Shown here: piece after piece, positions 5,373 to 64,000 of the stretch
Numbering within the stretch: position 1 is the first letter of the stretch
Layout: every line of letters begins with the position of its first letter
DNA from: Pelodera strongyloides
Taxonomy: Eukaryota; Nematoda; Chromadorea; Rhabditida; Rhabditidae
Length of the DNA stretch: 64,000 nucleotides
NCBI GenBank assembly: GCA_036852015.1
Contig: JAANDG010000322.1
Span: 62,001-126,000 of the forward strand
Direction of reading: 5' to 3'
Program-made: the position numbers and the translations under genes
Notes under the pieces: model-generated
Database searches by the model: none
Seen by the model: the letters and a program-made list of their open reading frames with translations, nothing else
What the model was told of the DNA's origin: nothing

Positions 5373-8252
5373 TTAACGATTCAAAGTAAGGGTATACTCT
5401 CGGAAGTTGGATGTTACATCATTTATTTCTAACATCGTAAGTAGATCATTTCTACCATCATTTCTATCCATTGACTTTAAACGCCGACTAAGAGATTTTG
5501 AACTTGGTAATTGTAAAAGTTTGTCTGGGAGTTTGTTTAGCCATTTAGCCGTGCGAATAAAGAAACTGTGATAATAAGGATTCAGTTTTGAGAAGGGTAC
5601 ATGCAATTCAAAAGATGAAATACGACCTCTAGTTGGTCTCCAAGCATAGTATTTACTAAACGAGGTGGAGAGTTCTCCCTTGAGTAACTTGAATGCAAAT
5701 ACAAGGTCTTGCTTTATACGTCGTTGTTGCAGAGATAAAAGGTTAAACTTACGTAGCCTTTCGCTATAGCAAGGGATCGGAGATTGTCCAAAACATTTTT
5801 GAAAGATAATGCGCGTAATACGGGCTTGAACTTTTTCAACTTTGGTTATGTCTTTCTTTAAGTAAGGGCTCCAAACAACGCTTGCAAATTCAAGGATTGG
5901 CCGAACATATGTTTTATATGCTTTCAAGAGTATTAAAGGATTTCTCTGTTTTATGGTTTTGTTAATCGCAAACCAGGCTCCCATTCCTTTAATACACATT
6001 TTGCTTATATGATCAACGTATTGCCAATTGTTTTGCACTTGTATGCCAAGATCTCTAATTGTACTAACCGAACCCAATGCAAAGTTTTTCACTTCGTAAA
6101 CATATTTCATGTTATTTTTTCCAAGATATAATACACTGCATTTTGATTCGGATAATTCGATTTGCCAATCATTGCAAAAATCTGATAGAGCGTTTAAAGA
6201 GATTTGGAGTAATTTATGTGCCTCTGATGCATCTTCTCTTTTGTATTGACAAAACACTTTACAATCATCGGCAAAACACCTTATTGAAATGCTCGGCGAA
6301 GTTTTTACTGCCTTTGGGAGGTCGGATATATAGAGTAAAAAGAGTAGTGGCGCTAAAATTGAACCCTGTGGGACCCCAGAGGGCGCTGCGAATTCACTTG
6401 AAAAGGTGCTATTATTTATTTTAACAGAAAAGGTTCTCTGAGAAAGAAAATCCTTTATCCATTGAACAAGTTGTTCAGGGAATCCCAATTTCCGTAGTTT
6501 GAAAACCAATTTTGAGTGAACTACCTTATCAAAAGCCTTTGCTATATCCAAATAGACTACATCAATCAATTCCCCTTTTTTGTGAGAAGAAAGCCAGTTT
6601 TTCTGGCAATCCAACATCTGTAATTCTACAGATTTTCCTCTAATGAACCCATACTGCTCTTCTGGTAAACAGTTTAGTTTCAAAACAAAACGATTTATTT
6701 GATTGAGGACAATCATTTCCATTGTTTTACATATAGCGCTATTTATGGATATTGGCCGAAAATGAACTGGGAGGGTTGGCTTTGAGATCTTTGGCACTGG
6801 GGTAACAATAGATTTTCGCCAGTTTGATGGCATTTTACCGGTCTCAAGAGAAAGATTATAAATATAGGAAAGAGGTTCCGCCAGTTCTCTTTTCAGAGAT
6901 TTTAAGAAATATTGCGGTATTCCATCAGATGTAATAGAAAAGGAATTCTTTAATTTTCCCAAGGCTTTATACACTTCATCCGGATAAATAGTAGGTATTT
7001 TATGATTTCTGTACGTAGTAGACTTTGTATGCATATATGGCAACCGCCCATTATCATTTGTAAAGACAGATTTAAATTGACTCCCAATAAGCTCAGCTTT
7101 TAGCTGATTGTCATAAACAGTATCTTGTGAATTTGGATCAGTGATTACCCCAATATTGCATTTTCCCTTTATACGAGCATTCACATAAGAAAAGAACTTT
7201 TTCCCGAATTTATTATCAAAAAATTTCTTTTCCCTGTGAGCGAAAAACTTTTGGAGCGCCTTTTCTAAATTGCAGTTTATGTTTCTCATGAGAGCTGAGT
7301 TTGCAACAGATGGATTTTGTCTATTGATAAGGAATAAACGACGTTTATGATAAAGCATATTCTTTATATATGCAGGAAATTTTGTTATTTGCAATTCATG
7401 ATACCTGCTTGGGACAAATTCTCCTATTAAATAACGGAGATACTCAGTTAATTTCTGTTCCAAGTCATTTACATCAAAATAATATCCAAAGAAGTTTTCC
7501 CAATCTATTGATAAAGCTCTTGTGATTGAAGACCAGTCTGCATTTTTGAAATCAAGAATTGGTGTTCTCTTAGATAAAAGACTGGGTGAAAAGTTTACAT
7601 TGAAAGTTATTGTATTGTGATCAGATGTACCAATGGCGGGCTCTACATTTAGCTCAGTTATAATATGAGGAGAACTGGAAAAAACATGGTCAATTATACG
7701 CTTTTCACGTGTTGGTTGATTCACAAAATAGGCCCAACCCATAGATGTGACAAATTCACCGAAACCCTTTTCTTTAGCTGATTTTGGAGCGGGAGAAAAA
7801 CAATCGTAGTGAATGTTGAAGTCGCCAACTACTATAGTTTCCAGGCCACAACTGCATAGATTTATGATTTCATCATATAAGCTAGTATCAGCCACTGTTG
7901 TGCAGCCCGGCAAGCGATATATAATTACGAAACGTATTTTTGTAAATTTTACTATGTTCTCAAGATCCAAACATAGCACTTCGTAATTTGAATTACTTAT
8001 GCTTTTTTGCTCTTTGCAAGTAATATTTGGATTTGTGAGAGCACAAATACCACCACCCCTTTTAGATGTACGATCCAGGCGAAATACGTTATAATCCAGC
8101 CCATCAAGTATTAAAGAACTACCTATGTCTTTTCTTAGCCAACTCTCTACACATATAAATAAGTCAGGATTCTTTTGTGATAAATGCAACTGAACAGACG
8201 AAAGATTCTTTAAGACGCTTCTAATGTTACAATATGATACCAAGAGTGACAA
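5373..8252 (-). CDS. LINE ORF2: AP-like endonuclease plus reverse transcriptase
   Basis: About 959 residues. The N-terminal apurinic-type endonuclease shows SYCNIRSV, CVESWLRKD, RTSKRGGGICAL, VVGDFNIHYD and IGTSDHNTITF (the last near residue 209). The reverse transcriptase (about 430-720) shows RPISINSAICKTMEMI, QYGFIRGKS, VYLDIAKAFDKV, PSGVPQGSILAPLLF and the catalytic RCFADDCKV near residue 655. The C-terminal part has no zinc knuckle that I can see. The frame at the endonuclease start has no nearby ATG: it opens upstream through a TTG, overlaps the end of ORF1, and has its first in-frame Met deep in the endonuclease. Translation therefore probably depends on reinitiation, frameshifting or a non-AUG start. 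Target-primed reverse transcription is the known mechanism for this class. Confidence 0.9.
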   Translation of the reverse strand: MSLLVSYCNIRSVLKNLSSVQLHLSQKNPDLFICVESWLRKDIGSSLILDGLDYNVFRLDRTSKRGGGICALTNPNITCKEQKSISNSNYEVLCLDLENIVKFTKIRFVIIYRLPGCTTVADTSLYDEIINLCSCGLETIVVGDFNIHYDCFSPAPKSAKEKGFGEFVTSMGWAYFVNQPTREKRIIDHVFSSSPHIITELNVEPAIGTSDHNTITFNVNFSPSLLSKRTPILDFKNADWSSITRALSIDWENFFGYYFDVNDLEQKLTEYLRYLIGEFVPSRYHELQITKFPAYIKNMLYHKRRLFLINRQNPSVANSALMRNINCNLEKALQKFFAHREKKFFDNKFGKKFFSYVNARIKGKCNIGVITDPNSQDTVYDNQLKAELIGSQFKSVFTNDNGRLPYMHTKSTTYRNHKIPTIYPDEVYKALGKLKNSFSITSDGIPQYFLKSLKRELAEPLSYIYNLSLETGKMPSNWRKSIVTPVPKISKPTLPVHFRPISINSAICKTMEMIVLNQINRFVLKLNCLPEEQYGFIRGKSVELQMLDCQKNWLSSHKKGELIDVVYLDIAKAFDKVVHSKLVFKLRKLGFPEQLVQWIKDFLSQRTFSVKINNSTFSSEFAAPSGVPQGSILAPLLFLLYISDLPKAVKTSPSISIRCFADDCKVFCQYKREDASEAHKLLQISLNALSDFCNDWQIELSESKCSVLYLGKNNMKYVYEVKNFALGSVSTIRDLGIQVQNNWQYVDHISKMCIKGMGAWFAINKTIKQRNPLILLKAYKTYVRPILEFASVVWSPYLKKDITKVEKVQARITRIIFQKCFGQSPIPCYSERLRKFNLLSLQQRRIKQDLVFAFKLLKGELSTSFSKYYAWRPTRGRISSFELHVPFSKLNPYYHSFFIRTAKWLNKLPDKLLQLPSSKSLSRRLKSMDRNDGRNDLLTMLEINDVTSNFREYTLTLNR

Positions 8253-8272
8253 TTCATCCCTACTTTGACAAT

Positions 8273-9142
8273 TTAGTTTCCCTGGCGATGAAACTGATTG
8301 TTTTGGTTGGATAACCGGGGGTTTTGCCAGTTTTGAGGGATGGGGGTCTGCATGGCCTCATTTGTGCGATCGGCAAATTGCGGGTCATTTTTCCAAACAA
8401 GTTTTGTATCGCGCAGTTGATAAAGTTGGCCACCCAGAGAATTGAGGTAGTCCCTCTGATCGCGCAACTTTTTGAGGTTTTGGCGCTCTTCAAAAGAGAT
8501 GCTGGGACGAATGTAAAAATTTGCCCATTTTGAATTTCGAAGCTTATGCTTCGTCGCGAGAACCCGTCCAACAGAATTTCTCGTTGGCATCTCGACCTTC
8601 CAAAGGAACGAGTTCATTTTAAAAATGCACGCTGGAGACTCTGGAATGTCTAAATGTTTTAGAAGCGTTTTAACCTCATAAGCCACCTGATTGTCTTCAG
8701 ACACTTTCGCACGCGCAATTGCTTCCGCCTTATCCTGGCTGGATACAGTATTGGGATCAGTGTTTGGTGGGTACCTTGGGGCCTGCGCGTACACATGCTG
8801 TGGGATATTAAAGACGAGCGAACGGAGACGCTTCTCCTCTCGCACTGCTTGCTGCATGCACGGCGCCGTGCCATTCAGTACTGTTTTGGTGACCTCCAAC
8901 ATTTTAGCCACCGCAGTCAAAAACTTAGAAGCTTCATTTGCAGTCAAATGAAGTCCCTCCGCGCCAAAACCATTCTGAATGATATCCGTGATATCTTTCT
9001 CTTCCATACCAACAACCTCCACTAAAGCTTGCTTCTTAATTGGTCTCGATGGTGACTGTGAGACATTTTCATTACTATCTGCCCGACGTTTATTAGCAGA
9101 ACGATCTACCTCCATTGGAGTCTTTAGACCTTGATCGGTCAT
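8273..9142 (-). CDS. LINE ORF1 protein
   Basis: 289 codons starting at ATG 9142 and ending TAA just upstream of ORF2. The N-terminus is charged and serine-rich (KRRADSNENVSQSP, basic PIKKQ). The middle is helical. The C-terminal half (SLVFNIPQ, IFKMNSFLWKVEMPTRNSVG, YIRPSISFEERQNLKKLRDQR) has the layout of the RNA-binding ORF1 proteins of CR1/L2-type LINEs, where a VRF/IRPS-E-R block is usual. The end is rich in Gln and Asn. The expected role is binding the element's RNA in the ribonucleoprotein. Antisense open frames across it are shadows. Confidence 0.75.
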   Translation of the reverse strand: MTDQGLKTPMEVDRSANKRRADSNENVSQSPSRPIKKQALVEVVGMEEKDITDIIQNGFGAEGLHLTANEASKFLTAVAKMLEVTKTVLNGTAPCMQQAVREEKRLRSLVFNIPQHVYAQAPRYPPNTDPNTVSSQDKAEAIARAKVSEDNQVAYEVKTLLKHLDIPESPACIFKMNSFLWKVEMPTRNSVGRVLATKHKLRNSKWANFYIRPSISFEERQNLKKLRDQRDYLNSLGGQLYQLRDTKLVWKNDPQFADRTNEAMQTPIPQNWQNPRLSNQNNQFHRQGN

Positions 9143-12769: not shown

Positions 12770-15700
12770 TCTCCACTTCCAAATCTGAACATATTATCTT
12801 GAACGTATCTTGAACATCCACTTCATATATTGAAACGTATCTTGAACATCTCCACTTCCATATATTGAAACGTATCTTGAACATCCACTCTATATATTGA
12901 ACGTATCTTGAACATCTCCACTTCCATATATGAAACGAAATCGTATCTTAACATACTTCCATATATTGAAACGTATCTTGAACATCTCCACTTCCATATC
13001 TTGAACATCTCCACTTCCATATATTGAAACGTATCTTGAACATCTCCACTTCCATATATTGAAACGTATCTTGAACATCTCCACGTCCATATATTGAAAC
13101 GTATCTTGAACATCTCCACTTCCATATATTGAAACGTATCTTGAACATATCTTGAACATCCACTTCCATATATTGAAACGTATCTTGAAACGTATATTGA
13201 AACGTATCTTGAACATCTCCACTTCCATATATTGAAACGTATCTTGAACCTCCACTTCCATATATTGAAACGTATCTTGAACATCTCCACTTCCATATAT
13301 TGAAACGTATCTTGAACATCTCCACTTCCATATATTGAAACGTATCTTGAACATCTCCACTTCCATATATTGAAACGTATCTTGAACATCTCCACCCCAT
13401 ATATTGAAACGTATCTTGAACATCTCCCACTTCATATATTGAAACGTATCTTGAACATCTCCACTTCCAATATTGAAACGTATCTTGAACAAATCTCCAC
13501 TTCCATATATTGAAACGTATCTTGAACCACTCCATCCTATATCGTATCAACATCTCCACTTCCATATATTGAAACGTATCTTGAACATCTCCACTTCCAT
13601 ATATTGAAACGTATCTTGAACATCTCCACTTCCATATATTGAAACGTATCTTGAACATCTCCACTTCCATATATTGAAACGTATCTTGAACATCTCCACG
13701 TCCATATATTGAAACTCTCAACCCCCACTTCCATATATTGAAACGTATCTTGAACAACATCCCCCCATATTTTGAAACGTATCTTGAACATCTTCATATT
13801 GAAACGTATCTTGAACACTTCCATATATTGAAACGTCTCCATATCTTGAAACGTATCTTGAACCTCCACTTCCATATATTGAAACGTATCTGAACATCTC
13901 CACTTCCATATATTGAAACGTACATCTTTGAAACATCTCCACTTCCATATATTGAAACGTACTTGAACATCTCCACTTCCATATATTAAAACGTATCTGA
14001 ACATCTCCCCATATATTGAAACATATCTTGAACATCTCCATATATATTGAAACATATCTTGAACATCTTGAACATCTCTTCCTTATATTGAAACGTATCT
14101 TGGACATCTCCACTTCCATATATTGAAACGTATCTTGAACATCTCACTTCCATATCGTATCTTGAACATATCATATATTGAAACGACTTGAACATCTCCC
14201 TTCATCTACTTGAACATCTCCATTCCATATATTGAAACGTATCTTGAACATCCCCTTATCCTATATTGAAACGTATCGGATCCCCTTTCCATATATTGAA
14301 AAGATCTTGAACATCTCCACGTCCATATATGAAACGTATCTTGAACATCTCCACTCATATATTGAAACGTATCTCCACTTCCATATATTGAAACGTATCT
14401 TGAACATCTCCACTTCCATATATTGAAACGTATCTTGAACATCTCCACTTCCATATATTGAAACGTATCTTGAACATCTCCACTTCCATATATTGAAACG
14501 TATCTTGAACATCTCCACTTCCATATATTGAAACGTATCTTGAACATCTCCACTTCCATATATTGAAACGTATCTTGAACATCTCCACTTCCATATATTG
14601 AAACGTATCTTGAACATCTCCACTTCCATATATTGAAACGTATCTTGAACATCTCCACTTCCATATATTGAAACGTATCTTGAACATCTCCACTTCCATA
14701 TATTGAAACGTATCTTGAACATCTCCACTTCCATCCTTGATCCACTTCCATATATTGAAACGTATCTTGAAAATCTCCACGTCCATATATGAACCGGATC
14801 TTGACATCTCCACTTCCATATATTATCTTGAACATCTCCACTCCATATATTGAACGTAGTTGAAAATCTCCTCTTGAAATATATCTGAAACTTGAACATC
14901 TCCCTTCCATATATTGTATCTTGAACATCTCCCCGTCCATATTCCAGTGACACGTATCTTGAACATCTCCACTCCATATATTGAAACGTATCTTGAAAAT
15001 CTCCACTTCCATATATTGAAACGTATCTCGTCCACCTCCATATATATTGAAACGTACTTGAACATTGAAACGTCCATCTACTTCCAAACGTATCTTGATC
15101 TCCCTTCTCCATATATTGAAACGTACTAGAACATCTCCCTTCCCATATATTGAAACGTATCTTGAAACGTAAACATCGTCCATATATTGAAACGTCTTGA
15201 ACAACATCTCCACTCCCTATTTGAAACGTCTCTTGAACATCCCACTTCCATCTATTGAAACGTATCTTGAACATCTCCACTTCCATATATTGAAACGTAA
15301 ATCTTCATAAAAATCTTGAACTCTCCATTATATATCTTGACGTATCTTGAACATCTCCACTCCACTCCATATATTGAAACTATCTTGAACATCTCCACGT
15401 ATATTGATATGACATTTCCACTTTCCATATATTGAACGTATCTTGACTCTCCACCTCCATATATTGAAACGTATCTTGAACATCTCCACCCAATATAGAA
15501 TCTTGAACTTCCACCCTCATATATTGAAACGTATCTTGAAACTCCCACTATATTGAACGTATCTTGAACTCTCCATTCCATATATTGAAACGTATCTTGA
15601 ATCTCCAATATTGAAACGTATATTGAACATCTCCACTCCATATATGAAACGTATCTGAAACGTATCTTGAACATCTCCACTCATTGAAACGTATCTTGAC

Positions 15701-53570: not shown

Positions 53571-54147
53571 TTAAAGGGTGAAGTCCACCTCAGAAAACAA
53601 AAAAGTTATTAGTTTTATTAAATTTCCCGTGTCTGTATCTACCAGAATAACTAAAACAAATTTGACAGAAAATTATTTCCAACGAAATATAGAGCAAAAA
53701 ATAGCCCTCCAGTACCATTATTACGATAGGCGTCGATGTGGTGTGGTGCATGATAAACCGCGCTCTCGCTACCGTTGTTTGGGGACAATGAAAGGGCGGG
53801 ATTATGGATGTGCGTTTGTTGCTTTTTTAAAACCATGCATTTTATTTTTTTGCCAAGCTAAACAAAGCACAATTAATCGTATTGCGTTGTAGTTATTTTA
53901 GAACATTTTTTTTGTTTGTATTTTTTTTTTCGAAAAATTTTCAAACAATTTTTTCTTCTCAACCAACATGTAAAAGGATACCAGGCTACCGTAATCCGAG
54001 GTACTCAAGCTGGACCATTTTTTGCTCATATTTCGTTGGAAATAATGTTCTGTCAAATTTGTTTTAGTTATTCTGGTAGATACAGACACGGGGAATCTAA
54101 TAAATATAATAACTTTTTTGTTTTCTGAGGTGGGCCTCACCCTTTAA
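53571..54147. mobile_element. Palindromic MITE, GGGTGAAGTCCACCTCAG family
   Basis: TTAAAGGGTGAAGTCCACCTCAGAAAAC at the left is inverted at the right as GTTTTCTGAGGTGGGCCTCACCCTTTAA. The arms pair for about 130 bp (AACTAAAACAAATTTGACAG... against its complement near 54055). The 580-bp interior carries AT-rich and GC-rich parts without coding signature. Confidence 0.85.
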
Positions 54148-54333
54148 ACATTCATTCATCCATACGTGCGTATTATAAACACAAAATAACTGTTACCACA
54201 TAACCGTAGACACGACTTGCCTGTCAAGAATTGAGACGTCTCAGGGCTATAAAACATTATAACTCCGGCAGCAACGGGCAAACAAACAGTAGCCATCGGA
54301 GTAACAAACTGGAATTTTTTATAGGAAACTAGT

Positions 54334-54513
54334 TACAGTGAAATACCGGCCGGCTTTTCAAACGCATCGTGGACAGCTGAATTCTTACGTATTTATGCAA
54401 AGTTGCCCGAATTTGGTTCGGTTTTTTATTATAATTTATGTTCATGCATAGGCTGCATAAGAATGCTGGTGTACTCGATGTGTTACCAAAACCGGACATT
54501 ATTTTGCTTTAAA
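54334..54513. mobile_element. AAGCGAAATACCGGCCGG-family MITE, copy
   Basis: AGTGAAATACCGGCCGGCTT at the left and ACCGGACATTATTTTGCTTTAA at the right. The terminal base changes suggest an older copy. Confidence 0.8.
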
Positions 54514-54564
54514 ACTCGTCGGTTGGATGCTCGAAAGAGCAAACCTGTGAGGGTTGAGCATTAG

Positions 54565-54942
54565 TTAAAGGGACAGGCCCATCAAAGTAAATCTATATTT
54601 ACAAAACGTTCATAATATATATAAAGATTTTTATTACAGTATATACAAACTAATTTCACCTAAACTCACCCTTGGGAACTTTTGGACATAGTGACCATTT
54701 AAACTTCCCGATGGCCAATTTGCTCGGGAAGTCGATTTATCTCCGTTGGTTTTACCCAGCTACCAACTTTTACACCTTTTGTGGGGTGAGGGGGTTCCGG
54801 CCCGGGATCGAACCAGTGACCGGTGGCGTGGTGAGCAAGGGCCTTGCCACTTGACCACCCCCTCGCCCCTAATAAAGATGCTTTATATAAATTGTGAACA
54901 TTTCGTAAATATAGGTTTAGTTTGATGGGCCTGTCCCTTTAA
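54565..54942. mobile_element. GGGACAGGCCCATCAAAG-family MITE carrying a tRNA-like insertion
   Basis: The ends TTAAAGGGACAGGCCCATC and GATGGGCCTGTCCCTTTAA match 2903-3299, but most of the inner arms is replaced by about 190 bp (roughly 54680-54869) that includes a tRNA-like sequence on the minus strand. Confidence 0.85.
54788..54864 (-). repeat. tRNA-derived (SINE-like) sequence
   Basis: 77 nt on the minus strand. The ends GAGGGGG and CCCCCTC pair perfectly over 7 bp. An A-box-like TGGTCAAGTGGCAAGGC resembles Leu/Ser tRNAs and a B-box GGTTCGATCCC follows at the expected distance. The anticodon arm is not convincing, so this is tRNA-derived, not a gene. Confidence 0.6.
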
Positions 54943-55366
54943 CACAGTCTTTACAGTAATTGTCCCGAGACCCTCCTACAGACAAACTCTGCACAACTTT
55001 TCTCCCGTGCGCCGTGCCCTTCTAGCGTTGTTAGGCGCGAATAAATAGGATAGGGAGGAGAAATCACGTCTAACCTGTATAAGTAAAACTTTAATCCACT
55101 TCCACTGCATGTCCTGTGTCTTCTTACTGGAAAGCTTTCGTCGCGTCCACATAGTCCACCACGACGATCCGACGGCCACTAAGATCTTTTATTAATAATT
55201 ATAATAGGGGGCGGTTGGGAGAATTTGCCTCCATGTGTCGCTGATTCGTGTGATCCCTCTCTCTCTCCCAGTACTGCCGATGGAATGCGGTTTTGTTCCT
55301 GCAAGCCTCCTCAGTCTGCACAGACAAATTCAATGTAAATGACACTAATTATGTGTGAATACTTAC

Positions 55367-58300
55367 CGAAAATTACTGCGAATAAGAAGGCAAAGAGCAC
55401 AGCTACATTAATCATGATGAACACTGCATCATTCTGGGCCAAAACGAAACCACGTGGATTATCAAGAAGAGCTTTCGTATATTCGGGATAATCCTAAACA
55501 AAAACAAAACTGAAATTGTGAAACATCGAACCTCGTTAATGAATGAGAGCAATCCCACAATATTTTCCCGTTCGTAGCGTTTAATGTATGATCTCCTGTA
55601 TATTGTTGCATTTTGTTTGTTCGCTTTGTATGTCTTTGTGTATTTTATCGACAAACTGTGCGTGTACATTTTTGTGTGCGTAATATATTATATCAAATTT
55701 TTTTGTTATATTATGAGTATTTCTTTCTTATGCTATATATGGTATCGAACGCGAACGGGCGTAATGCGAACTTGGTTTCTGAGGGTTAATATTTACCTTA
55801 GCATAATAGGGAATTACTTCATCCACATTCGTCACTGATACGTAATAACCTAATAGTATTCCCATGTACGATGATAGGAGCGAATGAAAGCATACAACTA
55901 ACATCTTAAATTGCCTGAAAGAGTGATATTAGCCGGTATTCTCGGGTCACTCTGGGAGGGCACCTTGGCAGGCAGGTCTGAGTCTGGGAAAAAAAGTCCG
56001 CAAAAAAGATGAGTCTGCGTCTGGGAATTTTTTTTCTGAGTTTGCGAAAAAAGTCTGGGAAAACAAAAACCAAATGGGAAATGGTAACGGTCTACCAGTG
56101 GTAGGTGCACGTGAATAGGTGTTTGTGAGAGAAGGCAAACAAGAAAACGAAAATCGAAATCTGGACCGGGTATTGTATAATTGAAAAATATTGCATATAA
56201 TAGTAGTAGTAGTCGTAAAGTAAAATACAAAATGTGTTGAAAATCAAGTTTAATTAAAGGGTCGCAGTCACTTCAAATCTCCTTTTTAGTCTTTTTACGT
56301 CAATTACCCATAAATGTAAAAAGATACCTAGAAAAGTGTAGTTTGCGCGTAGCAACCGAGCGCCAATAGAACATGGCGTCAAAATGTCGCACCCCAAATA
56401 CAGTATACCGAGGGAAGCGTACGCTTTTTTCATACGCGTTGCAACGGGCTGCGCAATTTCTGCCGCACCTTTTCGAAATTCGCTTGGCCAGTTATCTAGG
56501 TTTTTTTGTGTATTGGTGACAATGTTTTGTGTTTATTTGTTTTTATGATTGTTTCTTATTGTTTGCATAGTAGTCTAGCGTATTCGTTTCATGTGAGGTA
56601 GGCAGCCGCGTGTTACGTGACTAATACCGGCGTTTTGTAAATGTTTAATAATAATTTTATTCCAGTTTCCTTCGGTCATTGTTAAAGTTACATTTTCCAT
56701 GTATTCGCATATTTATTCTCCTTCATACTCCTTCCTGTTGTTCTGCAGTATTTACATGCGTCTCTAATTCCTTTTTCGTGGTATCTTTTTATTACATTTG
56801 AATCGAGTTATTGAAGTTGTAAAAATACTTGTCGAAAAAGTAGTAAGCTAACGGTCTGGCTTTGTCTGTGAGAGAACAAGGAAAGCGTTTAAAATAGAGT
56901 GGAAACTCGTGTTGTATTAGACAAGTTCAGTGCAGTGAAGTCGCAGTTGTTAAACTGGGTGACGGAGTCAGTACTAGAGTTCCGTACAGTTCGGAAGTGA
57001 AAGAGAAAACCGTACAGTTCGGTGTATACCCAATGTTTCCGTACAGTTCGGAATTGGAAGAGAAATGAGAAGATCGTACAGTTCGATCAAGACTAAGTCA
57101 GTTGGTCAATCAGTTTGCTGTTGTAAGCTTCCGTACAGTTCGGAAGAGAGACAGTACTGAAGAGGAAATGAATCGTTTTGCGGTGGGTACCGTTCTATTT
57201 TTCTAATGGGCATTTACGTTCGGCTACTGCGCAGAGTCATATGAATATTAGTTATCGCAAAAGAAATGGACGGCATGCGGCAGGTCAGGGGTGTAGGACT
57301 GAAGCAGTATAGTCCAGAGTTCCAGAGTCCAGGTATTCGCAGTCAATAGGACACGTGGGGGACTGAAGGTGATTTTTGTTTTCTTTGAGGGAGTGCCAAG
57401 CACCGTATTTCGGTTTAAAGTGCGGGGACATTTCATCGTCCGTTCATAGTTCATGGAAGGTTTCAAGGGTGATACTACATGTGTGGTTAAGTAAAAACCG
57501 ATGTGAGCGGAGTACTTTAATTGGAAGGGTGTGTTCTTTATTATTTAATCGGAGTAATTGGAGGAATAGCTAGGCCGGAGAAGTCACCTTTATTTTCGGG
57601 CCTGGTATAGGACGAGGCCGTCTTTTATAGAGGTCAATTTAACTTTGGTGGTTCGCGTAACGCTTGCAATTTGTAACCAATAATTATGTGGCTGCTTTCT
57701 TTTCGGTTTTCACGGTTTGCGTCATTTGCGTGGCGGTGGTACTGGTGTACGGGACTTGGTAAATCCGTGCGTCAGTATTCGTGAGGGACTGGCATACACG
57801 AGCATACAGTTGGTTTTGGGAGATGCAAAAGATCAAGGACGGACAGGTATCGTAGAAGGGTAGAAGTAGTGGTGTTCATACTTGTATTTGTCAAGCGAAC
57901 TAGATCTCATTGCTGTGCGATGTATTCGTGGGAGTGAAACATTGGCCGGAATGCTGTATGTAAGATTGCACTTTCGAGGGCGCCATCGCCAGCCACCGAA
58001 TAGAACACGCCGAGATTTTTCTACTTAGTTCTACAGAAAATGCAGAGACGAATGACTTGCATTCGTAAGAGTAAGAGGTTACATTTATATCATCGTCGTT
58101 CAGCCGAAGCCGCGGAACCGGCAGTACGCAATTTGGTACAGATCACAAAGGGCGCTTGTGGAATATGATGTGATTTACGGGATCAGCCATTAGCTCAGTC
58201 CCTCAGCCGAATAGAGGAGAAAGATACATGTTACCCGTCCGAACTTTCGGAGCCTATTTGCTGTATATTTGTATATTATTACTCTAGTGCTTCTTTCTCC

Positions 58301-60064
58301 GACTTGGGGACTATAATTGTAGGTGTAAGCCATTGGCCAATTGCCAAAAACTGTGTGTGCCTGAGGAAATTGGTTTGCTCCATGCGATATATGCGGTCGT
58401 TACTTCCACTTATCACTTCAGACAAATACGCACCATTATTTTTCCACACACCATTATTTTTAATCATTATTTATGGCCTGTCGTATGTTAGGTTAGGATA
58501 CTTTATGTTAATCTACTAGGAAAGTAGGAAATTTCCATTTCACATTTTGGCATCATTTTATCATGCTTCGTCGCTTTCATAATTTTAACCGTATCCGTGG
58601 TCTGTGGTCATGGTGTCCTTTTCTATATATCATAATACTCGGGTTCGTAATTACAGTGGCGATTATGTCGTGCTTGCGACCAAGGCTATGTGTGCGGTAC
58701 TGTTCAAAAGGTTCAACAATGAAAAAAGATGGCCCGGCGATAATCGTGTCTCACTGGCAGGGCTTTGTGGAAGCGACACTATTTTGTGGTTGGTTAAATT
58801 TTTTTTTAACTTGTCTTACTTGATACTGTGCAAGGTGAAAGCAGACTTCAGACTCAAGACGCCAGCTTTTTAGTTTGTAGCGTGTGAACATTCAATCGCT
58901 TTTTCGAGACCATGATCCTTCTTTACCTTGCAACCAGCTAGGAAAGCAGGGTGGCCATAACAAGGCCATTGTGGTCAGGTCAAGCGTAGTTCGGGTTTCT
59001 ACACATTATTGTATAGCAAATATAACATGTCAAGATTCTACACGCAATGTGTGTAGCTGATTGACTAAGCGCGTTTTGGCGCAGGGCAAAAAAGTGCGGA
59101 CATTTTTGGCCAAAGACCACCTCCGGATTGGCCCAGACCACCTACCACCTCCGGTTTTTGGTCTGACCACCTCCGATTTGGGGGATCTATAGTAGCTTAT
59201 ATTTCGCATATTAAAACGCTCAAACTGCACAATAGAGCAATATAACTATGCCTAATTAGTAGCTTAAATACACTAATTCATAACTGTTCATTTACCCGTA
59301 TTACGTACATTTACGTATTAATATTAACTAATTTATTTTAGGTGAGTGGTGTGTTGTCTGGAGTGATGCTGTGGCGTGCTTTCCTTTTCCTAACGAATGT
59401 TTCACTTTCACAGCTTACGGGCTCACCCTGGCATTGTTTTCCTTAGATTGCTATGGCTCGCTTTTTATTTGCTTTTGAAAATAAAGTGTGATTTTCCTTC
59501 CCGGTGTTCGGAGTTTTTGGTTCGTTTTTGGTATTTGCATGGGCATGGACATGGACTTCACATGCGACTGACTACATACACAAACGACTGCTGATTATCA
59601 CGATTGAATTGGATTCCAACTTCAATAATATATGATTGTTGTATGTTTGCTGGTTCCTATTATTATATGATTGCTATGTTCCACCTCACTGCCGACACTG
59701 ATCATTTATCACGCGTGCATATTTCTTTAGCCTAGTGTAGGGTTACTCACTCGTAACTGTAATTCTGTAAGAGCGAAAATGGGAAAGAAAAGAATTTTCC
59801 TGTCTATATAGCTGATCAGATCATGTTAGTAATAGAAATGCTGGAAGTACATAGGCATGCAGATAGGAATGCGTAAGCGTACGAAAGTAAAATGGCGAAA
59901 AATTGCTATATAAACTTCTGACTATAAAACTAGAAGTATTCAATTTTAGCAGCTTTCACGCAGCCCTATTTATCTATTTACACGATAAGTCATTGCATAC
60001 TCACTAAGTAGATAACTTAAAACACCCACGACAATAGAGTAAAAGAATCCAACGTCTGCAAATC
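55367..60064 (-). CDS. Multi-pass membrane protein, internal exons (partial model)
   Basis: Four phase-consistent minus-strand exons. 60064-60005 reads FADVGFFYSIVVGVLSYLL, a membrane segment. 59764-59751 is a 14-nt microexon reading NYSY. 55914-55797 reads QFKMLVVCFHSLLSSYMGI, with a second membrane segment. 55493-55367 reads DYPEYTKALLDNP..., then NDAVFIMINVAVLFAFLFAV, a third. Acceptors are TTTTTTTAG, TTACAG, TTTCAG and TTTGTTTAG; donors are GTGAG, GTGAG, GTAAAT and GTAAGT. An 18-nt block at 60328-60311 (KYQRE) would fit upstream in phase. Both ends of the protein are unresolved; downstream, 55308-55200 holds an open frame TEEACRNKTAFHRQYWER that only fits with a different donor. I do not recognise the family; a nematode chemoreceptor is possible. 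The 3.8-kb intron holds the hairpin cluster at 56980. Confidence 0.55.
56254..56515 (+). repeat. Half of a palindromic element plus 184-bp direct repeat (copy 1)
   Basis: Begins TTAAAGGGTCGCAGTCACTTC like the MITEs, but no inverted right end follows. Bases 56332-56515 recur at 63489-63673 in the same orientation with a single extra T. The same MITE start occurs alone near 38296 (TTTAAAGGAACGCAGTCACTTC). Confidence 0.8.
56516..56978. other. Intronic, nothing assigned
   Basis: AT-rich sequence up to the hairpin cluster, with no gene recognised on either strand. Confidence 0.3.
56980..57146. ncRNA. Cluster of five hairpins with invariant TACAGTT loop
   Basis: Hairpins at 56980-56996 (TTCCG/CGGAA), 57009-57023 (ACCG/CGGT), 57037-57053 (TTCCG/CGGAA), 57072-57088 (GATCG/CGATC) and 57128-57146 (CTTCCG/CGGAAG). 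All share CG-TACAGTT-CG. In hairpin 4 the three outer base pairs differ from the others and all three changes are compensated, as is the changed pair in hairpin 2. This covariation points to selection on an RNA (or DNA) hairpin. No transcript or strand can be shown from sequence. It lies in the large intron of the minus-strand membrane-protein gene. Confidence 0.5.
57147..59114. other. Intronic, unassigned
   Basis: Open frames near 58560-58870 (plus strand, reading for example DYVVLATKAMCAVLFKRFNN) have no splice context or recognisable motif. No MITE ends seen, which is unusual for this window. Confidence 0.3.
59115..59175 (+). repeat. GACCACCTCCGG motif cluster 1
   Basis: Three copies of (G)ACCACCTCCG at 59115, 59144 and 59165, two of them followed by GATTTGG-like sequence. 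Two further copies lie at 61755 and 61787. Confidence 0.6.
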
Positions 60065-60409
60065 CTAAAAAAAACGTATTTCAAGTTGGGAAATTGCCAA
60101 AGTTGAGTGATGGTTAGAGAGCTTTAGTTAACCGGAGTGTGGTAGAGAATCGTGGGCTTTGCTATTCATTGTTAGACAGTATGTAATATGCGCGAGACAG
60201 CTGACGAAAAAATTATGAAGAGAGCATAGGAAAAGGAGATGCGCAGGTTTTTTCTCTGTCCGCACCTTATTTTCGATCCCAAAAGGGATAAACGAAATTT
60301 TCGAAACCACCTTCCCGTTGGTACTTAACTTAAATAAAATTACAATATATTTACATATTTAGAATCTCCAGAATGTCCTCTTTCAAATGGTATAGGTCAT
60401 ATAGCAAAT

Positions 60410-60690
60410 TGATTCCAAAATTGAGCAATGGGAAGGTTGTTTTGACAATTGGGCGTGGACCGGAAAGCGGACGGCGCGCAATTTTTTTTCAGGTTTTTTT
60501 TCTTACAAAATTAATAAGTTTTTTCGTAGTGGATATTTTCGTCTGAAATTTTCGTATGTTGTTCAAATAACTTTGACGTATACAAACAATACCTACTGAG
60601 CGATTTTAAGCAAAAAATGAATCAACGGGAAGGTTGTTTCGAGTGGACGGAATTCCGGACGGAATTTTTGGCAAAACTTGAAAAGGGGTG
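60410..60690 (+). repeat. Imperfect direct duplication around GGGAAGGTTGTTT
   Basis: Two stretches about 195 bp apart (near 60429 and 60629) share GGGAAGGTTGTTT followed by GTGGACnGGAA, GCGGACGG/CCGGACGG and an AATTTTT run. Confidence 0.5.
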
Positions 60691-63488
60691 TTTTAGTGCT
60701 TATTTTGTAGTAATAAGAGTTAGGAATGTAATATATTCGTATTCTGTATACGAAATAACATACAGATCAGTTTTCAATTGATTAAACAATATTTTTCAAG
60801 TATTATAACAATAGTAGTATTAGGCGGGTATTGGTGATATGGTAAGTGAATGTGTGAGTGAAGAGAGACACCACTATACTTCTGCTGCAGTTATGTTAAT
60901 TTTGCTTGGAGCCTTATAATTCCATATGTTACATACATTTCAGATCTATAGTCTTTTTTTCCAGCTATTACAAGTTTTCCCTTTAAGCTGCAGCGCGAGC
61001 CTTTCTAAACAGCCATAAAAGTACCGTATGCGGTCGTGGATCCTAGTCGTGACAATTAATGTAATATCAAATAACGGCGTTTAGGCAACTATAGTATGCG
61101 TACCGCTTTTGTCTAATAGGAGAAAACTCATAAACACACACAAAATCTCACCGGGATGTAACATAAAAACATTTATAAGTGTACTAAAACAAATAAATAG
61201 CAAATAAGACTACGTGTTTGTGAGTGGAGTGGTTGTAGAAGATCTGCAGGAGATGTCGTTCCACCTGTGTTTAGTAGTACTATAGTTTAAACTAATACAT
61301 TGGTTCCAATTCAATCGTGTTAATTGTGCTCGTGTAGAATTAGTCGTTCTTGTCCAGTCCTTTGCTTTGCTTAGATGCATTATGAAAGAAGCTCACACCA
61401 AAGGAAAGAACCAAGGGAAAAAAAATCACATTTATTCAATAGGCAAAAAAAGATGAAACAATGAAAGAGCATTCGTATCTTTCTTCGGTGAGTGAACTGA
61501 GTGAAAGGGAAAACTGTGCACCATCCCAAGGAAAGCATGTCACGGCAAATCACGCAAACAAACACACCTGAAAAAACAATTAATGGGTTTGATAGTAAAA
61601 TAAAACGTATTTGCAACATAAGGAAATACTTAAATAACGTAAAAATGAGCCGCCACCCTGCTAGGTTTAGCGAAAAATAGACCTCCCCTACAGTACTACA
61701 CACAAAAAAATGTTGGCCAATTTTATTAGGTGCCCGTGTTACCGTAACCCAGAAGACCACCTCCGAAAAGCCATTTTTACTTAAGAGACCACCTCCGGAT
61801 TTTGGTTTTGCGGTCCGGGGATTTTATGCCCTGTTTTGGCGGTGTAGGTTATGATATGAGGCATACTGCTAGGAAAAGCCTACAGTCATTCAGTCATAGT
61901 GCAAGTTGCGAAAACGTGGTGATGGATCCTAGCCTAAAACTATCCGCTTTTGGTCAAAGAACCAATGAACAACCAGTGTACAGTGTAGATCAGCATTTTG
62001 CACAGAACCAGAAGTTACTGAGTTATTAGTTCGAACACTTCGCATGTAGTACATAGGCATCTTGTTGAAACTCTATTGGTCCAGAAACGTATCGGAGTGG
62101 GAGTATCATAAGCTGGTCAAAAGGCAAGCGCAATCTTGGAAACAATCTCCATACGACCCTATTTTACCGACGTATCATGCTAGTTATGAACGTTAGCTGT
62201 TCGCTCGTTCGGGAGAACCGGCAGAATATTACTTACGTATGTGTATGTTATAAGAAAAAAGAAAGGGAACGCAACGTTTTAATCACACAAGTCTTTAGAG
62301 TGCAAGTGGCCGAACGAGTTCTATCGGCGCCGTGATTTTCTTTGACGGATAAGAAAAGGTTTCCATCAGTACGGAGCGGTGAAGGAATTCAAGGTAATTT
62401 ATGTTTGTTTTCCGCGTTTCCATTGTACCTAGTACCTAGCCAGGGTATAATTTCCTTCGTAAATGGAGATGCTTGGATATGGATTGGAGATGCTTGGAGT
62501 TAAATATGAATGAATATGAATTAACTAATCGTGGAAGGCGTGGAGGGGTGGCCAAATGTAGACGTAGCCTAAGACCACCCGAACTGCACCGGGCTAGATG
62601 TCTGAACACTTTTCAGTTCAGTTGCTTACACTTACTCAGGCTCAGGCGGCTTTAATACTTCGTGAGAAAGTAGACATTAGGGAATAGACACCAATTTCGA
62701 ATGAGTCCAGACCAGTACCAGAAACGTCTGAGTTGGGTACAATGTTCATACAATATTAATTTACCGGACACAGTAAGGTCATTTGGTCATTATTTTGGGG
62801 AACGCTCGTTCGGAACGAGAAAGCTTCGTTGAAAAGAAAACGTGCGTGGGTGCGCGCACTGCACAGTTCTGTAATGACTGACGTTTTTAGAATGAAAATG
62901 TGAAGAGTTCTATGAGCGGATAAGCTCCATCGAATGGACGCTTGGATCGTCCTAAGTGGCAAGGAAGCGTCGGGCCATTCAGAAATGTATCTGCGAAGGA
63001 ATTCAAGGTGCTTTTGAAACATACGTTTGGTCCGTATCAGTATTTTCCCAGTAACGGCAGTACAGTATTTTATACTAGTGTGGAACCAGAAGTTTGGTTG
63101 GCGGACGGGCTAATAACTCAATAGGCGTGACATATGGTATAGTCCAAAGTTCAAATGTTAGAGGGGGGTATTTTACGGGTATCACAAACATGTAAATATT
63201 GTATGTGTACCATGGCGACTGGGAAATATATACTAATTTTGAAAGTCGGTACATAAACTCCAAACGTTCCACGGAGGGGAGGCTCGACAATTGACGTTGC
63301 TTTTGAGTTTAGACTCGTTACCATATGCCAGCCAGACAGACGTATCGGGTTTTTCTCCCCTTCGGGGCTTTGTAGTCTAGCAATAAACCATTCCCATTTT
63401 CGGGTTATTTCATGTGTCACGTGGGTACACCAAAAGCGAGGGGCGTAGCGCAAACGTAATTTTTCGCGTAGAAGTTTACGCCGTAGCT
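60691..63488. other. No gene recognised
   Basis: A minus-strand frame at about 61570-61490 follows a TTTTTTCAG acceptor and reads VFVCVICRDMLSLGW, but has no fitting donor phase. A plus-strand frame at 62942-63124 (VSAKEFKVLLKHTFGPYQYF) is protein-like but unrecognised. The phrase GAAGGAATTCAAGGT recurs at 62384 and 62995. The second GACCACCTCCG cluster is at 61755-61800. Confidence 0.3.
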
Positions 63489-63673
63489 AAAAGTGTAGTT
63501 TGCGCGTAGCAACCGAGCGCCAATAGAACATGGCGTCAAAATGTCGCACCCCAAATACAGTATACCGAGGGAAGCGTACGCTTTTTTCATACGCGTTGCA
63601 ACGGGCTGCGCAATTTCTGCCGCACCTTTTCGAAATTCGCTTGGCCAGTTATCTAGGTTTTTTTTGTGTATTG
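63489..63673 (+). repeat. 184-bp direct repeat (copy 2)
   Basis: Identical to 56332-56515 except for one extra T in the final T run. Sequences on both sides are unrelated between the two copies. Confidence 0.9.
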
Positions 63674-63757
63674 TCCCACCCGCCCCTGTGCCCTTATGTG
63701 TGTTTTCCACCACTTAGGGCCACTTTGGTACTGTTCTGCTGCTATCATTTTCAGAAC

Positions 63758-63889
63758 ATGCCTCGTCACACTGGCGGATCCTACCAGACCAAGGAATCCA
63801 TCGCTCTACCTTATACTCGCAAGGGAACAGGGATTCAATGTTCAATACGGAGATTCGTCATCGATTATAAGCAAAGAATAAGCTCCTGA
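63758..63889 (+). CDS. Short ORF behind a trans-splice-like acceptor
   Basis: ATG 63758 lies three bases after TATCATTTTCAG. The frame reads MPRHTGGSYQTKESIALPY and continues to TGA at 63887-63889 (43 aa). The tight acceptor-AAC-ATG spacing is what a trans-spliced nematode mRNA start looks like. No donor is seen before the stop, so it would be a tiny protein, unless the exon uses a donor I missed. Not recognised. Confidence 0.35.
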   Translation: MPRHTGGSYQTKESIALPYTRKGTGIQCSIRRFVIDYKQRISS

Positions 63890-64000
63890 TTTTTACGTTC
63901 TTTTCTCGTCGGGCATTCATTTCCTACCATACGTTATCATCGTTCCTTAATCTGTAGCACATCGCTGTGTTTTAACTAAAAAGTACAACTTCTATATGTT

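Follow-up and report, generated by a model that had tools for sequence, protein, structure and literature searches.

The window analysed in this study, a 64,000-nt stretch of the Pelodera strongyloides genome, carries five short hairpins that, judging from the arrangement of the surrounding repeats, sit on the plus strand in the leader of a non-coding PAT-like element (DIRS order, tyrosine-recombinase type). All parts of this element given here run on the plus strand. The 5′ terminal direct repeat A1 (56332–56515, 184 bp, beginning AAAAGTGTAGTTTGCGCG) is followed by a leader that reaches to the array (56516–56979) and is 60–85% identical in six copies, by the hairpins themselves, and by an interior (57147–63375) that is non-coding according to an open-stretch scan and tblastn and is interrupted by a nested insert. 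The B1 repeat (63376–63492, 117 bp, with an AATAAA at 63382) then runs into the A2 repeat (63489–63673) at the junction GCT-AAAA-GTGTAG, and the stretch from A2 to B2 (63674–64000) continues past the window end to the second copy of the 117-bp B repeat, B2 (C322:126103–126219). This copy begins at 56332, ends a little beyond the window and spans 7.9 kb, its own length without the insert being about 5.1 kb. The insert (59082–61833, 2.75 kb, strand not assigned) is DNA-transposon-like, with ends CAGGGCA...TGCCCTG and an 8-bp duplication, TTTTGGCG; it is missing where the copies L009, L010, L011, L012 and L016 align across the site and is not part of the system. It looks like a non-autonomous element of what we take, on general criteria, to be the hAT type. 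We also noted, on the minus strand of the window, a non-LTR retrotransposon-like stretch with 994-aa and 289-aa open frames and, by eye, an endonuclease and a reverse transcriptase (RT) (5373–9142), and a large tandem array that is open in several frames (12823–15680).

The core CGTACAGTTCG occurs five times without change in the window, always on the plus strand (starts 56983, 57011, 57040, 57075 and 57132), and 0 times in each of 100 dinucleotide shuffles of the window, which bears out the original prediction of five hairpins with an unchanged CG-TACAGTT-CG and varying, mostly paired stems. Hairpins 1 (56980–56996) and 3 (57037–57053) both read TTCCG-TACAGTT-CGGAA, the outermost pair of the latter being absent from 10 of 17 copies; hairpin 2 (57009–57023), ACCG-TACAGTT-CGGT, appears in other copies as CGCCG/CGGTG with a G.U pair; hairpin 4 (57072–57088) is GATCG-TACAGTT-CGATC; and hairpin 5 (57128–57146), CTTCCG-TACAGTT-CGGAAG, has altered stem or loop letters in several copies. 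At the site of hairpin 4 the copy on C545 has TGCCG/CGGTC, in which T-A has become C-G on both sides and A-T has become G.U, one loop letter also being changed.

Folded singly, the five hairpins all take a 7-nt loop on a stem of 4–6 bp, with energies of −4.1 to −8.0 kcal/mol; these values are equalled or bettered by 3 to 28 of 200 shuffles, and the single stems are weak. When the 211-nt array stretch was folded whole, site 1 was predicted to pair with site 5 and site 2 to take another pairing; five separate hairpins are thus not favoured by this predicted fold. The fold z-scores of this stretch were −2.99 versus −2.43, the minus strand being no worse than the plus strand. An Rfam search of positions 54000–60500 at E values up to 1 returned a single match (60295–60451, 29.3 bits versus a gathering score of 139.7), and no described RNA family fits. 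A coding repeat was also considered. One frame translates the cores as PYSSE, but the gaps between them (28, 29, 35 and 57) break the frame, and the 166-aa open stretch of C79 gave no Pfam match; the coding reading was therefore rejected.

Structure and coding capacity of the family

The split direct repeats, in the order A1...B1-A2...B2, are found in the window copy, in eight further copies with both ends and in a coding relative on C351. Seven of the other copies with both ends are 4.6–5.3 kb long, and L009, which is also interrupted, spans 8.0 kb. The 184-bp direct repeats had suggested an LTR retrotransposon, a reading dropped in view of B1 and B2 and of the A-B order. No exact target duplication of 3–9 nt was found at the element ends in any of the nine copies with both ends (9/9), and absence of a target-site duplication is a criterion of PAT-like (DIRS-order) elements. 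A1 starts with AAAAGTG or AAAGTG in most copies, B2 ends in AAAA, and B1 joins A2 through AAAA; a circle closed at B-A would yield exactly the internal junction, as would be expected of circles inserted by a recombinase. The first core lies 606–916 nt from the start of A1 in the 11 of 17 copies in which A1 could be placed. In the window copy, A1 and A2 are identical in 177 of 179 aligned columns over the compared stretch, which points to a recent insertion.

The array is part of a multi-copy retrotransposon, a point that the original prediction missed. The family to which the window copy belongs appears to carry no genes of its own. In a stop-to-stop scan of 16 spans, some of them partial, 15 had no open stretch above 174 aa, the exception being C545, whose longer ones lie in a nested element. 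Of the 17 copies, 16 were without a match in a tblastn search with eight proteins of coding relatives, and C545 gave one weak match (E 0.004); the four open stretches of 135–174 aa in the family had no Pfam match. By open-stretch scan and tblastn, RT/RNase H and tyrosine recombinase coding is therefore absent from the window family, which for this reason is filed only as a non-autonomous PAT-like relative. C545 (L029) is the most diverged copy; its nested element is a coding retroelement that has open stretches of 443 and 260 aa and, by eye, looks BEL/Pao-like.

Distribution and conservation of the hairpins

In the genome searched (160 Mb, 1171 contigs), exact cores number 135 versus 134 for the backwards pattern. 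By number alone they are thus not over-represented; what stands out is that they cluster. Inside 18 related elements there are 83 of the 135 exact cores, the other 52 lying elsewhere, and these 83 have one orientation (83/83), which in C351 is that of the coding strand. With one pair more, CCG..CGG is found at 70 sites, 66 of them in related elements (backwards control 46), and TCG..CGA at 20 sites, 17 of them in related elements (backwards control 3). Leaving C351 aside, there are 81 exact units, of which 75 form at least two outer pairs and six form one. An array is carried by 17 copies, some cut by contig ends, and hairpins are present in C351 as well, so that further genomic copies, named beforehand as a test, do exist.

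Two other occurrences were set aside. A core on C56, 4.9 kb before a recombinase, was taken as chance because it is a single core with no RT-like open stretch between. Beyond this genome, a two-core pattern matched 18 viral and 16 prokaryotic stretches, which were taken as unrelated: among the matches inspected, a single 18-bp tandem repeat accounts for 16 of the 18 viral ones, and the others, by eye, show no array with a fixed loop and varying stems. This 18-bp tandem repeat, which holds the core and is common to 16 of the 18 matched IMG/VR contigs (L049–L066), is unrelated to the array. In a separate search of the genome, a 22-nt sequence that we take to be the nematode SL1 was found in 315 exact copies (backwards control 0), which fits the nematode host; at C26:1276–12412 it recurs about every 600 bp, probably as a spliced-leader gene cluster.

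When the 17 copies were aligned, the hairpins stood out as islands among spacers that gain and lose letters. In seven copies, 52–55 of 55 core letters are identical to those of the window copy, and the spacers, gaps counted, match it at 74/190, 64/97, 58/90, 53/83, 57/83, 62/87 and 54/94, the lowest figure (74/190) being that of C79 with its tandem growth. The array, compared as two separate pieces, is 83–95% identical in six copies and exceeds every other tested 167-nt stretch of the interior in all six, although the margin is thin (95 versus 93) in C79, which among these copies is most like that of the window. In five of the six, the array is 83–89% identical versus 56–70% for the interior between the array and the insert site. 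The element ends are also conserved in six copies (A1 81–94%, B1+A2 85–95%, B2 88–96%).

The comparison supports the repeated element of the original prediction, in which the loop is fixed and the stems covary: in 27 distinct units, standard pairs fill 88.1% of cells versus a shuffled mean of 72.8 (0 of 500 shuffles), and the covariation score is 0.381 versus 0.130 (0 of 500), though units related by descent are not independent, so that these figures and those on stem types below overstate. Sliding the pairing partner by 1–3 columns gave at most 60% pairing and a score of 0.150. Double-side pair changes (three) and further pair types (six) in the 27 units were not above shuffles, being reached by 221 and 356 of 500, respectively, and the outermost counted pair is open in nine of the 27. 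In eleven stem types, 26 of 33 outer pairs are formed versus a shuffled mean of 16.7 (p 0.0001), and a hand-picked set of five stem kinds forms 14 of 15 pairs, matched by 1 of 120 permutations. Decay was seen at site 5 of C238 and C792, where stem pairs and one loop letter are lost, and changes of the loop or inner pairs were also seen in C79, C869, C1055 and C545; the altered loops read UACAAUU, UACAGGU, UACAGCU and UACAUUU. In C79 (L010, 4871–5080) the array has expanded to eight exact cores through 27-bp tandem steps, and in four of its units the C-G closed stem is no longer than 3 bp. The earlier view that simple tandem duplication is an unlikely origin holds between sites and between elements, C79 being the one copy with such growth.

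The coding relative on C351

The element on C351 has the order A1, two hairpins, ATG, RT, RNase H, B1-A2, recombinase stretch and B2. Its hairpins, 21 nt apart, have the stems ACCG/CGGT and ATTCG/CGAAT and the loop of the window family, the outer stem ATTCG/CGAAT being absent from the listed units of that family; the ATG, 340 nt beyond them, opens 47 aa. The RT is well matched (PF00078, E=6.1e-21) and the RNase H is above its cut-off, while the recombinase, at 25.5 bits, falls just under its cut-off of 27.1. Of the putative Dam-like methyltransferase domain of PAT-like elements there is only a hint: the PF05869 match reached 13.8 bits versus a cut-off of 28.1; the stretch aligns with P0006, whose own PF05869 match of 24.8 bits is also below the cut-off. 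No zinc finger of the CCHC/CCCC type was matched in three frames upstream of the RT, where a broken or spliced Gag could hide one. A1 and A2 of this element are identical at 182 of 184 positions, and B1 and B2 are identical over 90 bp. In a protein search with 7997 candidates scored, the RTs nearest to that of C351 were two unnamed ones (51 and 43%), and the nearest named ones were from Trichostrongylus, Cylicocyclus and Haemonchus.

The window copy and C351 share words of 13–16 letters only in the ends, in the AATAAA/B1 stretch and in the hairpins (the 16-mer AACCGTACAGTTCGGT); other shared words are of 11–12 letters, the same as in the reversed control. Searches of the genome with RT and recombinase gave 27 and 43 matches, respectively, with 38 Pfam matches in all for recombinase elements, and C846 holds a near-identical copy (99%) of the C351 recombinase. 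A DNA search of the genome with A1 and leader of C351 gave three matches and no second full leader, one full C351 copy being seen. The pairing of C351 as helper with the window family as parasite would rest on the shared ends and hairpins, and another helper may exist.

C351 resembles the nematode form of Pat1-like elements (PAT, DIRS order), which has the same A1...B1-A2...B2 split direct repeats. In the accessible text of the paper describing that form, the recombinase is placed after the internal repeats (PMC4157794), and in C351 it likewise follows them, so that the layout of C351 agrees with that form; the named RTs closest to its own also come from nematodes. The window family differs in lacking RT and recombinase, and C351 differs from the Pat1 subgroup, which has a zinc finger in Gag, in that none was found. 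A leader hairpin array is not described for Pat1-like elements in the accessible text of the same paper, where the words 'hairpin' and 'stem-loop' occur 0 times (PMC4157794).

Possible roles of the hairpins

The reading we put forward, to which we assign about even probability, treats the hairpins as a recognition signal that acts in cis and lies in the leader RNA of a PAT-like (DIRS-order) retrotransposon unable to move on its own. The near identity of A1 and A2 in a window copy without genes of its own suggests recent mobilization in trans, and a family that moves without genes must be recognized through its nucleic acid. The ends are needed by the recombinase and by the reverse-transcription path, which as generally understood does not need the hairpins; since the coding element and the gene-less family have both ends and hairpins in common, the hairpins are most simply read as an RNA tag. 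According to this model, the plus strand would be transcribed from A1 and the hairpins would form in the leader RNA, where the UACAGUU loop, on its short stem closed by C-G, would be read by a Gag-like protein or the RT of the coding element; repeating the hairpin would give higher avidity. This reading would select the RNA for packaging or reverse transcription, so that the family is mobilized in trans, and the tyrosine recombinase of the same coding element would then act on the shared AAAA-flanked ends. The fixed loop, the near-fixed closing C-G/G-C pairs and the swapped outer pairs would fit an RNA binder that reads the loop. Against the signal reading stand the weak single stems, the whole-array fold, the minus strand that folds no worse, the outermost pair lost in nine of 27 units, the two covariation measures that do not exceed shuffles and the 3-bp stems in C79. 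Moreover, there is no obvious RNA-binding Gag, and C351, of which one full copy was seen, has two hairpins, not five. Retroviral packaging signals, which consist of several stem-loops in the leader, offer a parallel in position, in the presence of several fixed-loop hairpins and in serving elements that depend on proteins supplied in trans; they differ in that no sequence relation is known and in that the element class considered here uses a tyrosine recombinase, not an integrase.

We give some, though clearly minor, credence to the possibility that a factor of the host or the element binds the array as double-stranded DNA (as promoter, silencer or insulator), the near-palindrome being a dimer site. 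The dyad of the 17-mer TTCCG-T-AC-A-GT-T-CGGAA is near-perfect and continues across the loop, several sites lie in one leader at an irregular spacing of 20–57 bp, and the minus strand folds equally well. The leader of Drosophila gypsy, too, carries an array of repeated sites, those for Su(Hw). However, the Su(Hw) sites are DNA, whereas the window array has covarying outer arms, and a dimer site would hold its half-sites and leave its centre free, while here it is the TACAGTT centre that is fixed. This asymmetric centre is never inverted in the 83 exact cores, although tandem duplication alone keeps orientation too; the single orientation and the asymmetric fixed loop also weaken the cruciform binding site of the original prediction. 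Furthermore, pair 4 is G.U on the plus strand in six of the 27 units and C.A in one, a weak lean towards plus-strand RNA. An RNA element with another job, such as dimerization through the loop, stability, nuclear export or translation, seems unlikely to us: the loop ACAGU could pair with a second copy save for the central A, and the whole-array fold joins sites 1 and 5, but a translation signal would be needless in non-coding copies, and retroviral dimerization loops have even palindromes, whereas the centre here is odd, with an A.A mismatch.

That the hairpins have no function and are recent tandem duplicates in a repeat, preserved by youth, we hold to be very improbable. The tandem growth in C79 and the fact that several copies are 95–99% like that of the window would agree with it; however, in five of the six compared copies the interior has diverged far more than the array, the cores are nearly fixed, and C351 has the same hairpins with hardly any other interior sequence in common. 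Least of all do we credit METT-10/METTL16 sites with m6A in the UACAG loops, for all that the host is a nematode and that UACAG lies within a hairpin loop, as in the several hairpins of one RNA, MAT2A. After UACAG the motifs differ, the loop here being UACAGUU; none of the changed loops reads UACAGAR, and neither UACAGARAA nor UACAGAAAC occurs in the array loops. In the accessible text of the study of the worm enzyme, the METT-10 motif is UACAGAAAC, changing its end to UACAGACUU leaves no methylation in vitro, and METT-10 is inefficient on other targets (PMC8208822). The original prediction, which cited METTL16 as a parallel and not a match, was right to do so.

Taking the recognition signal one step further, we tentatively propose, as a possibility somewhat short of even, that the array may serve a lineage of tyrosine-recombinase retrotransposons as an RNA address code, a signal of several hairpins that the element's own protein would read and that a gene-less parasite family would have retained while shedding nearly everything else. 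To our knowledge, how tyrosine-recombinase retrotransposons choose their own RNA has not been defined, and in the accessible part of the open-access literature we came across no signal made of hairpins in the leader of DIRS, PAT or Ngaro elements. An interior that has diverged save for its hairpins makes these a likely signal, and as a motif they are small and open to testing, since variants and stem swaps occur naturally. Should the address code be real, we know of no RNA recognition signal defined earlier for the DIRS order.
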